Source of the DNA: Medakamo hakoo
Lineage: Eukaryota > Chlorophyta > Trebouxiophyceae > Coccomyxaceae
Direction of reading: 5' to 3'
Length of the DNA: 64,000 nucleotides
Assembly: GCA_026636295.1 (NCBI GenBank)
Contig: CP089456.1
Coordinates: 372,001 to 436,000, forward strand
Of this stretch, positions 41,610-48,028 are shown one piece after another (the first letter of the stretch is position 1; every line of letters starts with the position of its first letter). The position numbers and the translations under genes are program-made. The notes under the pieces are model-generated. The model saw only the letters and a program-made list of their open reading frames with translations. It searched no databases and had not been told where the DNA came from.

Positions 41610-42144
41610 GGTGTTTTGTGTTGTGGTGTTTTGTTGGGGTGGGTGGTGTTGTGTCGGCCGCCAAACCGCGCCCCCCCGTCTCGAACGAGAGTGTGAGAAC
41701 GAGCGCGCACGCTTTCGTTTTTTTTTTCGCTGGCTTTTTGTTTAGTGTTGTTACAATCGCAGCCGCCGCAGCGGGGAAAACACCCCGCACATAGTCGGCG
41801 GTGTTGCGAGCGGGGGGACCCTTGTCTCTGTCTCGTAGCAAGAAAAAAAGGAATTCGCGGCTGTCGTTGTTCAATTCAAGTCCTTGGTTTTTTTTGGTTG
41901 AGCTGTCGGCACAAGCGGAGGTCGGGTGGTAATCAATAGGCAAAAGAAGTTGGGGGGAGGGGAGGGGGAGGGGGATACAAACAATTAAATTGTGTGAGGG
42001 GGAGGCTCCGTTTAGGGCCAGCCGTCCCAGTGTGCAGCCGGATCGCGCCAGCGTCGCAGTGTGTCCGGGCGTCGCTTGTTGTTTTGGGTTGTGGCTTGTG
42101 TGTGTTGGTGCGAACAAGAAAAAAAAAAGGGTCGGGGTCGCTCT
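41610..42144. other. Intergenic region, T-rich
   Basis: This 535-bp region lies between the TCP11 start and the stop of the upstream GATA-MBD gene (same strand). It has unusually low GC for the window, several A and T homopolymers (about 41719-41730, 41843-41850, 41888-41896, 42118-42128). No gene was seen. Confidence 0.5.
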
Positions 42145-43387
42145 TCACGTCCGCCCGCCGCCGCGCCGCCCGACCGCCGCCGGGGTCACAGGCCCCAGCG
42201 AGGCGTTGACGGCTCTCGCGGCCGCCGCCGCGGCTGAGAGCGCGCGCGTCGACGCGGCGAGGGCCTTGCCGCCGTCCACGGCCAAAGGTGAGGCAGGCAG
42301 CAAGCCGACCGCGGCCGCGGCTTCGGCGGAGGTCGTCGACGACAGCCCTGCACCCACGGTCGCCGGCACGCCGCCGGCCAGCTCGTAACCGACTAGGTGC
42401 AGGGCGTGCAGCGGGTTGTTGTGCGGCACCAGGCCGAACGCCGGGCCGGCGGCGGCGGCGGTGTCCGGGCTGCCCCCGCCACTCTCGCACGCCGCCCCGC
42501 GCACAATGACCGCCAGGCGCAGGGCTTCCATGCGCGCGACGACTTCGCGCGGGCTGGAGGGCGGGGCGTCAAGCGAGGCAGCCGGCTCTGGTGCGGCGGG
42601 CGGCGGAGCACCCGCGGCGCCGCGCTCCGCCCGCGGCAACAAGTGGAGCAAGACGGGCGGGGGCGACCCCGCGCCCCCCGCGCCCGCGGCCGCCAGGACG
42701 TTGGCGCGCGGGAAGACGCCGACGACGACCAGGCGGGTGGGCAGGCGGGACGCGGCGGCGGCTGGCAGGGACGCCTCCAGGCTGAAGACGGGCGCGGACG
42801 GCGGCGGTGGGCCGGCGGACGCGGCGGCGCCGGGCGCGCAGGGCCGCCGCCCGGAGCGCGCGGCCTGGCGGCCACAGACCTCCTCACAGCCGTCGGAGCC
42901 GTCGTCGTCGCCGTCGGCGGCGGCCGGTGCGGCGGCGGCCGCCGCCGCGTCGGAGGCAAAGACGCCGCCATGCCAGGCGACTGGCGGGGCGCGCCCACCG
43001 CCGCCGCCGCCCGCGGAGCCGCCGGCGCTGCCCGCTGCGACGGACTGGCAGCGGGGCGACGACGCGGCCGTCGTGGCGGGGCCGTCAGCGGTGGGGCGGC
43101 CGCCGGCCGTCGCCGTCGTCGCGGTGACTTCCGTCGCCGTGGCAGCACCACCGCCAGCCCGCGCGCTGGGCGTGACGGGTGAGGCGGGCTGGAGCGGCTT
43201 GATGTCTGCCGGCGGGGCGGCGGCGGCGGCGGCGGCGCCAGTGGCGGCCGGGGCCGGGGCCGGGCCCGCCTGTGTCGCGTCCCCCCTGTCGGCGGCCGTC
43301 GCCCGTGGCGGGGCGGACAGCGGCGCGGGCGGCGACCCGCCCGACCCGCGCGTGCCCGCCACGGCCGGGCTGGCCACGACGCTGGCC

Positions 43388-43421
<34 letters not shown>

Positions 43422-45911
43422 AGCCGCCGCTGCCGCCCGTCGCGGCCGCGTGCGCGAGCGCCGCCTCGAGCGTCAACAGCGTCGCGCCCGTGTCCGGGCA
43501 CACATACGCGACGTCCAGGCGCGTCGCCGCTGCCAGGGCGCCGTCGCCGTCAAAGACGCCGTCAGGCGCGAACAGGTGGGCGAGCTCCGGGGAGGAGGAC
43601 GACGCCGGGTCGAGGCCGGAGGGCATGGGCGGCCGGGTCACGCACACGACCTTCCTCCACCCGGGCGGCAGGGAGTCGAAGCCCGGGTCGGCGCCGACGG
43701 CGGCCGCGACGGGCGCCGGCACGGACGCGGCCGACCGACGCCGCCGCGGGACGGGCGTGGCAGCGGCCTCGCCGCCCGCGTGCGGCGCGGCCCAGTCGCC
43801 GTCCGAGTCGTCGCCGTCGGTGCAGGCGCGGTGTGGGAGCAGGGCGAGGCCGGGCGCGCCGCACACAAAGCGCCCGTGGGCGGGCAGGCGGGCGCTGATC
43901 AGGCGGGACCGCCCGCACTCGTCGCAGGTCGCCCACAGCCGGCCGTGCGTGGTGGTGAGGCGCAAGGCGGCCGACCGGGCGGCGGCGGCGCCCGGGCGGC
44001 CGCCGACGGCCGCGGCCGCGGCCAGGCGCGAGAGCTCGGCCGCGGCCGCCGCGTCCGGCCACCGCCCGCGGACGGCCGCCGTGGCGGCGCCCGCCAGAGC
44101 AGCAATGACACGGCCGATCCCGGCGCCTGGACACCCGACCAGCGACGCTTCCAACGCGCGCTGCCAGTCCGGCATGGTGCGGCGGTGGTGCGGCGGGCGG
44201 GCGGGGTGCAGCGGGCGCGGGTGGGCCCCGCCTCCTGCATTGTTGCGTGGGTCACCCGCCTCGTCCGACGACGACGACGGCAGGCCCAGCAGGAGCAGGG
44301 CGCCCGCGTCGGCCAGGTCACTCAGCAGGCGGCCCGCCGCGGGCGCGTTCGTCCACACCAGGGCCGCCGCCCGGCGCAGGTCGCCGCCGACGTGCGTGCC
44401 GGCCAAGTCGGGCACGGCCGCGACCGCGCGCGCCGCGCGCAGGGTTAGGGCCGCCGCGCGCGCCGCGCCCGCGCCGCCCCCGCCGCCATCGCCCGCCTGC
44501 AGCGCCGCCCGCGCCCGATCAATGAGCTCAGACCACAGCGGTTCGGAGGGGGACCGTGGGGACGGCGGCTGGCTGGCGGCGTGGGCGGCGCCACACGGCG
44601 GGGCGGCCATGCGGAGGTGCGGGAGGTGCGGGCGCGCGCCGCCCGCGGCCGCGGCCGCGGCCGCGCCGGCCGCCGCTACCGCCGCTGCCGCCGCCGCGGC
44701 CGCGTTCGTCGCCGCCAGCGCTGCTCGGGGCGCGTACACGGGCAGGTACTGGCCGTTCGCCGCCGCCATGTAGTGCGTGGACGCCGGGCGGCCGCCTCCG
44801 CCCCCCGCGCCGCGGCCGGGTGGCGGCGCGGGCAGGCCGGCGCCGAGGCCGGCCGCGGCCGCGTCCGCCGCCATCTGACGGGCGAGAGCGATGGCGGCGC
44901 GTTCGGCAGCGGGACGGCGCACGCCCGACCGCCGCTTCTTGGCGGGCGGAGGGTGAGGCGGCGCCGCCGCGGCCGCGGTGGCGGGCGGCCCGGGCGGGCC
45001 GGGCCGCGCCGAACTGACCGACCCGCCGCCGCCCCCATGCCCGCCACCCCCACTCGGCCCGGCCGACAACCCAAACTCGGCGCCCGGCCCGAATTCCGAC
45101 CCGAACCCGCCGCGGCCGGGCGACGGGTGCCCCGCCGCCCGCGGCGGGCTGGCGGGGTGGGGGGTGGCGGCCGTCGCACCGGTCTGCTGGACGCCGCCGC
45201 CACCGCCGCGGCAGCCGCCGGGGACGTACCCGTCCAGCGTGCCTTTGTTGAGGTAGCGCACGCCACACGCATTGCACAGGTGTGGGGAGGTGGGCGGGCC
45301 CCGGCGCCAGGCGGGGGAGTGGCGGCTGTGTGTGTGCATGGAGAGGGGTGGGGGTGTGGGCTGAGCGAAACCTGGGAGAGGGTGGGAGGGTGGGAGGGGG
45401 GGGTGGGGGGGGGGGGCGGACGAAGGAACGGAGGCGCACGCCCAAACACAACGCACCGCCCGCAGTGATCGCACGGCCCGCCCGACTGGGACGCGTAGCC
45501 GGTGCCGGACGGGGGTGGCAGGCCCGTCGCGTGGGCGTGGTGGTGAGGCGGCCCACTGGACGGGCCGCTCCAGCCACCACCACCGCCGTCGCCCTCCCAC
45601 TCGCCGTCGTCGTATTGTCGCGGTTTGCGCTTGCGGCGGGTGCCGGCGCGTGGTGGGCCTGTGCAGTGCGGTGTGTGGGGATGCCGTGTTGCGTGAGTGT
45701 GCGAGGGATGACGCGACAGCGGGTGGGACGCTTTATGTGTGCCACGGACGGGGAAAAAGGGGAGGGTGGAGGTTGCACCCCGCGAATGGGCCGGCATCAG
45801 AGAGCGGGAGCCCCCCCCGCGCGGCGGCCGCGCACGGCCTTGCCACCCTCTCCCACCCGGCTGCGGACGTGCATTGGACTTCAAGGCCGCCATCGCGGGA
45901 GGTTCCAGCAT
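42145..45911 (-). CDS. Chromatin protein joining GATA, CW-like and MBD-like domains
   Basis: Two exons: about 45911-45457 and 45325-42145, with a GTGCGTTG donor and an ACACAG acceptor. Joined in phase they recreate one GATA finger: CDHCGRRHSPAWRRG in front of PPTSPHLCNACGVRYLNKG. Spacing is CX2CX18CX2C, the plant class. About 400 residues later, LWATCDECGRSRLISARLPA and GRFVCGAPG with a fourth Cys in HRACTD fit a CW zinc finger. Next, SLPPGWRKVVCVTRPP and then TRLDVAYVCPDTGATLLTLEA resemble a methyl-CpG-binding domain. Several plant MBD proteins carry CW before MBD; the added GATA finger is unusual. The rest is Ala/Gly-rich. The N-terminal start is unsure: 45911 is the first in-frame ATG, and a splice acceptor near 45655 is possible. 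The role is inferred as DNA- or histone-mark reading. Confidence 0.8.
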
Positions 45912-46441: not shown

Positions 46442-46486
46442 AGCGCCGGCGCCGCGGCGAGAGCCAATCACACGCGCGGTCGAGCC

Positions 46487-48028
46487 ATGGACGGCGTCCC
46501 TCCCAAAAACCGCGCGCGCCGGGCTATCGAGCTGGCGTGCGAGCACCTGCCGGCGTGGCAGGGGGTGCGGCCCAAGGAAGTCAAGGTGAGAGCGCCCGAT
46601 GAGAGAGAGAGACCGCGTGGGCGGCGGCGGCGAAAAAAAAGCAAAACCCGCACGCACTCACGCGCCCCGCCCTCACCCCGCCCGCAGGCAACCGTCATCT
46701 CCGGCGGCCTGACCAACGCGCTCTGGTCCTTGCACCCACCCCACCCGGCCCCGCCCATTGCCGCGCGTGCGTTCGGCGACGGCTCCGACCTGCTGGTCGA
46801 CCGCGCGGCGGAGAAGGCCGCGCTGACCGCCCTCAACCCTGCCGGCTTTGGCGCGGCCTCGCTCGTCCACTTCCCGGGCGGGCGCCTGGAAGAGCTGCTG
46901 GCCTTGCGCACGCTGGACGCGGACGGTGTGGCGGACCCGGCCATGGCAGCGCGCATCGCGGCGGGCCTGGCCCGCCTGCACGCGGCGGGGCGCGGCGTCC
47001 TCGTGCACAAAGCCAAGGCCGGCCGCGGCCGCTTCCCGTCCCCCGCGTCCTCGTCCGCCGCCGCGCACGCCGCCCTCTTCCGGACGATGCGGTCCTGGCT
47101 GACGGTGGCGCTGCGCCTGGAAGCCGTGGCGGCAGGCGGCGGAGGCGCCGGCAAAGGCGGCAAAGTCTCCGCGGACGCGGCCCGGGCCGCCGCGCGCGCG
47201 GCCGCGCCCTCGCCCGCGCCGCGCCCGGCCGACGGCCTGGTGGCCGGCGTGCCCGTCGCCGCCTTCGCCGCCGCCATCGACCGGTGGGAAGCCGCGACGG
47301 CGCCGCTCGCGGCAGCCAGTGGGCCGCCCGTCTTTGCGCACATGGACCTGTTGCCCGGCAACATCATGGTGGCGGCCGACGACGGCGGCGGCGGCGGCGG
47401 GGATGACAAAAACGCGGGCGGCCCGCCGAAACTGCGCGTCCGCTGCCCGCCAGCCAACGGTGGCGGCGGGGCCACGCCCACATCCGACGGCGGGCCGCCG
47501 GCCTCTTCCACCCCGTACGGCCCGGGCCCCGGCATGCAGTTCATCGACTTCGAGTACGCCCGCCCCGCGCCACGCGGGTTCGACGTCGGCAACCACTGGT
47601 GCGAGTGGGCGGGCCTGGACTGCGAGTGGGGCCGGTACCCGTCGCCGGGCGCGCGCGCGGCGTTTGCGGCCGCGTACTTGGCCGAAGCCGCGCGCTGGGA
47701 CGTGCCCAAAAAGGGCAAGGGCGCGCCCACGTCCGCGCCTGCGCCCCCCTCTGCGTCGGCCATCGCTGCGCTGGTCGTCGAAGGCGACGCCTACGCGCTC
47801 GCGGCGCACCTGTGGTGGGCCGCCTGGGCACTCGTCCAGGCGCGCGTGTCGCCCATCGACTTTGATTACGGCGCGTACGCGGCCTCGCGCTTCTCTGAAT
47901 TCTTGGCGCGGGAGGGAGACGTCCGGGCGGCCGTCGACCGGCTGTGCGGCGGGCGGGCAAAGAAGAAGGGGGCGGGCGCGTGGCTGCGGCCCCTGTTGGG
48001 GTGCGGCGCGCACCCCGCGGTCGTGTGA
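46487..48028 (+). CDS. Choline/ethanolamine kinase
   Basis: Two exons, 46487-46585 and 46688-48028, join in phase 0 (donor GTGAGAGC, acceptor CCGCAG) to give 479 aa. TVISGGLTNALWSL is the nucleotide-binding start, FPGGRLEELLALRTL the hinge region, and HMDLLPGNIMV the Brenner/catalytic loop (HxDxxxxN). QFIDFEYARPAPRGFDVGNHWCEWAG is the choline-kinase motif with the metal-binding Asp. The enzyme makes phosphocholine or phosphoethanolamine for the Kennedy pathway. Choline versus ethanolamine preference cannot be told. Two Gly/Ala/Pro-rich insertions (about 47130-47230 and 47370-47520) interrupt the fold in loops. Its ATG lies 45 bp after the TOM6 stop; the gene is convergent with the methyltransferase, 73 bp away. 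Confidence 0.9.
   Translation: MDGVPPKNRARRAIELACEHLPAWQGVRPKEVKVRAPDERERPRGRRRRKKSKTRTHSRAPPSPRPQATVISGGLTNALWSLHPPHPAPPIAARAFGDGSDLLVDRAAEKAALTALNPAGFGAASLVHFPGGRLEELLALRTLDADGVADPAMAARIAAGLARLHAAGRGVLVHKAKAGRGRFPSPASSSAAAHAALFRTMRSWLTVALRLEAVAAGGGGAGKGGKVSADAARAAARAAAPSPAPRPADGLVAGVPVAAFAAAIDRWEAATAPLAAASGPPVFAHMDLLPGNIMVAADDGGGGGGDDKNAGGPPKLRVRCPPANGGGGATPTSDGGPPASSTPYGPGPGMQFIDFEYARPAPRGFDVGNHWCEWAGLDCEWGRYPSPGARAAFAAAYLAEAARWDVPKKGKGAPTSAPAPPSASAIAALVVEGDAYALAAHLWWAAWALVQARVSPIDFDYGAYAASRFSEFLAREGDVRAAVDRLCGGRAKKKGAGAWLRPLLGCGAHPAVV

Follow-up and report, generated by a model that had tools for sequence, protein, structure and literature searches.

Can one algal protein recognise a specific DNA sequence, methylated H3K4 and methylated DNA at the same time? 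The question is raised by a predicted gene of the trebouxiophyte Medakamo hakoo, located in the 64,000-nucleotide (nt) stretch analysed here (contig CP089456.1, positions 372,001 to 436,000, hereafter the window). An initial annotation, made from the sequence alone, had proposed that it encodes a GATA zinc finger, a CW-like C4 zinc finger and an MBD-like segment, combining sequence-specific binding with H3K4-methyl and DNA-methylation reading. The GATA finger is present, the parts lie in a single reading frame and their order is conserved in relatives. The CW and MBD folds are moderately shown, and residues used for reading are lost in all four family members compared (the Medakamo protein and its relatives P0001, P0004 and P0005), which does not support the proposed combination.

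The two predicted exons join into an open reading frame (ORF) of 1211 amino acids (aa) with no internal stop, and this spans the three parts, as had been claimed. The intron inside the finger was also recovered; it had been called in-phase, a wording that does not hold, because it is a phase-2 intron of 131 nt, and since this length is not a multiple of three, splicing is required to join the finger. Translation could start at any of three in-frame ATG codons (45911, 45893 or 45797). In the full 1211-aa protein the GATA family (PF00320) is detected with E 3.1e-10 and 39.9 bits, above the curated cut-off of 26.8, and the finger is certain. Both its sequence and its spacing (C-x2-C-x18-C-x2-C) are those of plant-type GATA transcription factors, which it also resembles in having a basic stretch nearby. 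This stretch, TRRKRKPRQ, may act as a nuclear localization signal; similar K/R stretches lie upstream of the finger in the relatives from Elliptochloris and Botryococcus. By profile search the GATA cut-off is exceeded at 11 places of the genome, the present locus included.

Relatives were searched for in protein databases, with about 8000 candidates scored in each search, so that the family may be more widely spread than reported here. A composite query matched P0001 (782 aa, ENA, 120-kb contig), P0002 (Elliptochloris bilobata) and P0003, a Dimargaris GATA protein at E 0.46. When a profile built from the window protein, P0001 and P0002 was used, 7996 candidates were scored and 71 proteins matched at E <= 1; the majority have a GATA domain listed, and P0004 (671 aa, JGI) and Botryococcus braunii P0005 (1045 aa) are also among them. 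P0005 contains, in order, the whole finger and the CW-like, MBD-like and C-terminal parts; P0001 has the same order, but its ORF holds only the second half of the finger. The order that the initial annotation had suggested looking for in related genomes is found in both. The ORF of P0004 has no finger. In P0002 the GATA finger, the latter half of the CW and the C-terminal part are present, but no MBD is visible, perhaps as an effect of the gene model. The two long relatives that carry an organism name both belong to the trebouxiophytes. In the precomputed Pfam annotation of the 71 matches none carries CW or MBD (P0001 and P0005, whose segments are under the cut-off, are among them); GATA is listed alone or with BAH, PF00643 or DUF7573, and four proteins have no listed domain. 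When the CW-MBD stretch was used for a word search, no match was obtained at E <= 1, the candidate list being probably filled by alanine/glycine-rich words. Within the Medakamo genome, protein searches with the CW-MBD and C-terminal parts returned only this locus at E < 0.1, followed by three further matches at E 0.17-0.21.

These relatives also bear on the possibility that two neighbouring genes have been read as one, which draws on the uncertain start of exon 1 and on a gene model that rests on genomic sequence and not on transcripts. However, the second half of the finger and the CW, MBD and C-terminal parts lie within one uninterrupted frame of 1195 codons, and in P0001 and P0005 a single ORF or gene model likewise contains them in this order. 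Both points argue against two genes, and we regard this alternative as very improbable. The intron itself seems to be shared. The ORFs of P0001 and P0009 open with unrelated letters and then run directly into the second half of the finger; additional letters stand at the codon of the 131-nt intron in P0007, and in the models from Elliptochloris and Botryococcus the finger is already joined. We infer from these ORFs that P0001, P0007 and P0009 have an intron at this codon.

Concerning the CW-like segment, the pattern W-x2-C-x2-C-x17-C-x12-C occupies residues 616-653, so that the zinc pattern and its leading tryptophan stand as described, while the profile match remains under the cut-off. When a segment of 57 aa was cut out, zf-CW (PF07496) was the sole family listed of 24,736, with E 0.018 and 15.5 bits against a curated 27.5; a 107-aa piece gave E 0.062, a 289-aa segment spanning the CW-like and MBD-like parts listed MBD alone (Pfam, E 0.18), and a Pfam scan of the full protein listed neither. 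The corresponding segments of P0001, P0004 and P0005 have no CW match in Pfam. The hhalign comparison with the CW domains of the same genome gave P 3.9e-5, with 0/200 and 0/200 shuffles scoring as high. The reference for this comparison consisted of six of the seven genome places above the cut-off; L007, whose first half has both cage tryptophans, was omitted since its second half is in another frame. The zinc cysteines are spaced C-x2-C-x17-C-x11/12-C in 4/4 members, compared with C-x2/4-C-x17-25-C-x10-16-C in the genome's CW domains. In the CW of ASHH2 the pocket is formed by two tryptophans, W865 and W874, while W891 belongs to the core (PMC9043364). The first cage tryptophan is present in all four members. 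The second is replaced by S, T, N or A in every member and the core one by F or Y, whereas 6/6 genome CW domains compared have W at all three positions.

For the MBD-like segment, the announced stretch LPPGW...LDVAYVCPDTG is present (residues 704-765), and here too the Pfam cut-off is not reached. MBD (PF01429) was the sole family of 24,736 listed for a cut segment of 88 aa, at E 0.032, and E became 0.00072 after removal of the loop, with a join chosen by us. Pfam lists MBD first, or alone, for the corresponding segments of P0001 (E 0.0018) and P0004 (E 0.00036); the bit scores in three members are 14.3 (window protein), 18.3 and 20.5 against a cut-off of 21, and the P0005 segment has no MBD match. 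The profile search proposed by the initial annotation therefore upheld GATA and left CW and MBD as sub-threshold matches of cut segments. A Foldseek comparison of the predicted model with the PDB gave AtMBD6, AtMBD5 and AtMBD6 as the best three, all weak. By hhalign, the four untrimmed members compared with two Pfam-positive MBDs of the genome reached P 0.0019 (0/60 shuffles as high), and P 0.00013 without Medakamo (again 0/60); for P0001 and P0004 alone, or P0005 alone, the score was reached by 2/60 shuffles each. A profile value of P 1.9e-7 was set aside, because it involved a trimmed loop and a reference segment picked by eye (the first copy of L001).

The insert in the first loop contains three short in-frame GT..AG pairs of 57-66 nt, all ending in CCGGAG, and none uses the CTGGCAG acceptor. 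We took the insert as protein, the frame being open throughout, and a short intron may be present there. At another locus, L011 (G000:C1:713089-713202), a sub-threshold MBD-like segment of 16 bits has a poly-Gly insert in its first loop, resembling this one. At L001 (G000:C9:648154, 1-1800) the ORF has one Pfam-positive MBD, upstream of which a degenerate MBD-like copy can be recognised by eye.

Tyr123 is among the residues important in MBDs. The arginine fingers R111 (RF1) and R133 (RF2) and D121 (MeCP2 numbering) are also important (PMC8811898). At fixed offsets, the equivalents of R111, Y123 and R133 occur in 0/4 members and that of D121 in 3/4; at the RF2 position P0005 has Y, or Q after a one-residue shift. 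The two Pfam-positive MBDs of the genome have RF1, Asp, Tyr and RF2, the first copy of L001 has none of the four, and L011 has RF1 and Asp. As for the methyl signal, one place with DNA_methylase (PF00145) is listed, L025 (G000:C2:261513-262802; E 1.9e-47, in a frame of 1873 codons, DNMT1/MET1-type by eye), and this strong match suggests that such a signal may exist in the genome.

The idea of one protein recognising a GATA site, H3K4 methylation and methyl-CpG can draw on this methylase, on the confirmed domain order, on the first CW tryptophan kept in all members and on the Asp121 equivalent kept in three. Against it, the second cage tryptophan, both arginine fingers and Tyr123 are lost in 4/4, and such tryptophans and arginines build the binding sites in ASHH2 CW (PMC9043364) and in MeCP2/AtMBD6 (PMC8811898). 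Since the second CW tryptophan and the arginine fingers are missing here but kept in the genome's own Pfam-positive domains, H3K4me and methyl-CpG reading are not supported; the protein lacks the known equipment for reading a methyl signal, and we consider the triple function improbable.

It could also be that the CW and MBD labels are a chance likeness in biased sequence, and that a GATA factor simply carries unrelated C4 zinc and alpha/beta segments. The matches are indeed under the Pfam cut-offs and missing from the full-length scan, and PDB sequence profiles did not recover CW. On the other hand, independent weak signals concur in the CW-then-MBD order known from plants, no shuffle reached the score for CW (0/200) or for MBD with all four members (0/60), and plant MBDs are on top in Foldseek; chance likeness is therefore unlikely, if less so than triple reading. 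We drew no support from PDB searches with the CW or the MBD segment, in which sequence queries ranked C2H2 fingers and dihydropyrimidinase-related proteins first and profile queries ranked mixed chains first. The structure-match list for the first model covers residues 98-191, so that the CW structures missing there are uninformative.

Two conserved parts go beyond the GATA-CW-MBD description. In the Botryococcus counterpart of the helical domain (P0005 residues 291-370) four helices are predicted, with AF2 pLDDT 79-96; an identity with the TFIIS N-terminal (LW) domain was considered and found no Pfam support. The C-terminal domain is conserved in P0001, P0002, P0004 and P0005, and its SPOC/Ku/ACID-type fold, predicted on P0005 only, is moderately shown. 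The predicted fold has the seven-stranded distorted beta-barrel with helices of SPOC (PF07744). No SPOC match was given by Pfam in the segments scanned, and a genome profile search was silent, but its controls were silent too; hhalign against PHF3/SPOCD1 SPOC gave P 0.11, with 4/100 shuffles as high. R1025 is an arginine invariant in five aligned members, by eye about 3 residues beyond the position of PHF3 R1248, the phosphoserine-anchoring arginine conserved in SPOC. That the domain is instead a relative of the Ku core or of MED25-ACID seems to us a minority possibility.

To our knowledge, no plant GATA factor has CW, MBD and SPOC-type parts, and searches of the open PMC literature aimed at this architecture found no description of a GATA-CW-MBD protein, judged by titles and the beginnings of abstracts. 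AtMBD1, AtMBD2, AtMBD4 and AtMBD12 are CW-containing plant MBD proteins, and in several plant CW-MBD proteins CW is known to precede MBD. Watermelon ClMBD10 and ClMBD7 contain CW as well; no GATA finger is named for these two (PMC9125323). All these proteins have CW and MBD in one chain, like the window protein, whereas the window protein has neither the second CW tryptophan nor the MBD arginine fingers. PHF3, DIDO, SPOCD1 and FPA share the C-terminal SPOC-type fold predicted in our family. Besides SPOC, PHF3 contains a PHD finger and a TFIIS-like domain (PMC9834408). Its layout is roughly parallel to that of the window protein, which has GATA in place of PHD or RRM and whose sequence similarity to PHF3/SPOCD1 SPOC is not significant. 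Chlorophycean BAH-GATA proteins (P0033 and P0043, from the volvocine algae Astrephomene and Chlamydomonas) are another green-algal case of a GATA finger fused with a chromatin domain, with BAH where the window protein has CW-MBD; by precomputed Pfam such fusions also occur in Gonium, Chlamydomonas schloesseri and Monoraphidium.

Other combinations were seen in the Medakamo genome. At L018 (G000:C5:349784-349873) one open frame has a GATA finger and then an AP2-like segment (Pfam GATA 1.6e-9, AP2 2.3e-9), and at L020 (G000:C1:1406651-1406731) the same succession lies in one frame, but Pfam lists only GATA at E <= 0.001. At L005 (G000:C5:231233-231361) a single frame has a CW finger (5.3e-13) and, after it, an ARID domain (3.4e-6).

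Table 1. Position of the gene, its parts and neighbouring features in the window.
Feature	Position	Strand	Remark
Predicted two-exon gene	45911-42145	-	
Exon 1	45457..45911	-	Residues 1-151 and two bases of codon 152; start codon uncertain
Basic stretch TRRKRKPRQ	45615..45641	-	Resembles a nuclear localization signal
GATA zinc finger	45238..45473	-	Residues 147-181; intron-interrupted
Intron GTGCGT...CACAG	45326..45456	-	Inside GATA finger
Exon 2	42145..45325	-	Stop codon included
Helical domain	44281..44535	-	Residues 416-500; conserved in alignments of relatives
CW-like C4 zinc finger	43792..43941	-	Residues 614-663
MBD-like domain	43438..43671	-	Residues 704-781; first-loop insert of ~33 residues
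C-terminal SPOC/Ku/ACID-type domain (predicted)	42376..42981	-	Residues 934-1135; low-complexity inserts
TGTAA, possible poly(A) signal	41751..41755	-	~390 nt past stop
Kinase-like ORF, divergent neighbour	46442-48028	+	Choline/ethanolamine kinase-like by eye

The TGTAA listed in Table 1 may be a poly(A) signal of the green-algal type, and its frequency across the window is at chance level. The assembly has 15,638,232 bases in 16 contigs, and the window has a GC content of 74.1%; the published description gives 15.8 Mb, 18 contigs (2 organellar), 16 chromosomes and 72.7% GC (PMC9871001).

Taking these results together, we favour, as the likelier interpretation, a transcription adaptor of trebouxiophytes that is anchored on DNA, has CW and MBD folds put to a new use and docks through a SPOC-like domain. 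Such a protein would be a nuclear regulator specific to this lineage, in which the GATA finger is followed by the helical domain, the CW-like finger, the MBD-like domain and the C-terminal SPOC-type domain. The finger would place the protein on GATA-type sites, the CW-MBD pair would have lost methyl reading and been retained as a folded module contacting protein or DNA, and the C-terminal domain may dock to phosphorylated partners, for example the C-terminal domain (CTD) of RNA polymerase II (Pol II) or a cofactor. A more specific version is tentative: the GATA factor might bridge a promoter site to phosphorylated Pol II by SPOC-type docking to the CTD, with the CW-MBD pair switched to unmodified chromatin. 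If true, this would be a one-protein adaptor from transcription factor to polymerase, invented in trebouxiophytes.

The protein would represent a conserved algal regulator in which sequence-specific DNA binding, chromatin-reader folds and a probable transcription-docking fold are joined in a single polypeptide. Its reading residues have been lost naturally, while CW and MBD domains elsewhere in this genome are intact, and this offers a testable case of reader domains retained for a non-textbook ligand; the very small genome, in which the searches found no second copy of the CW-MBD or C-terminal parts, would ease a functional test.
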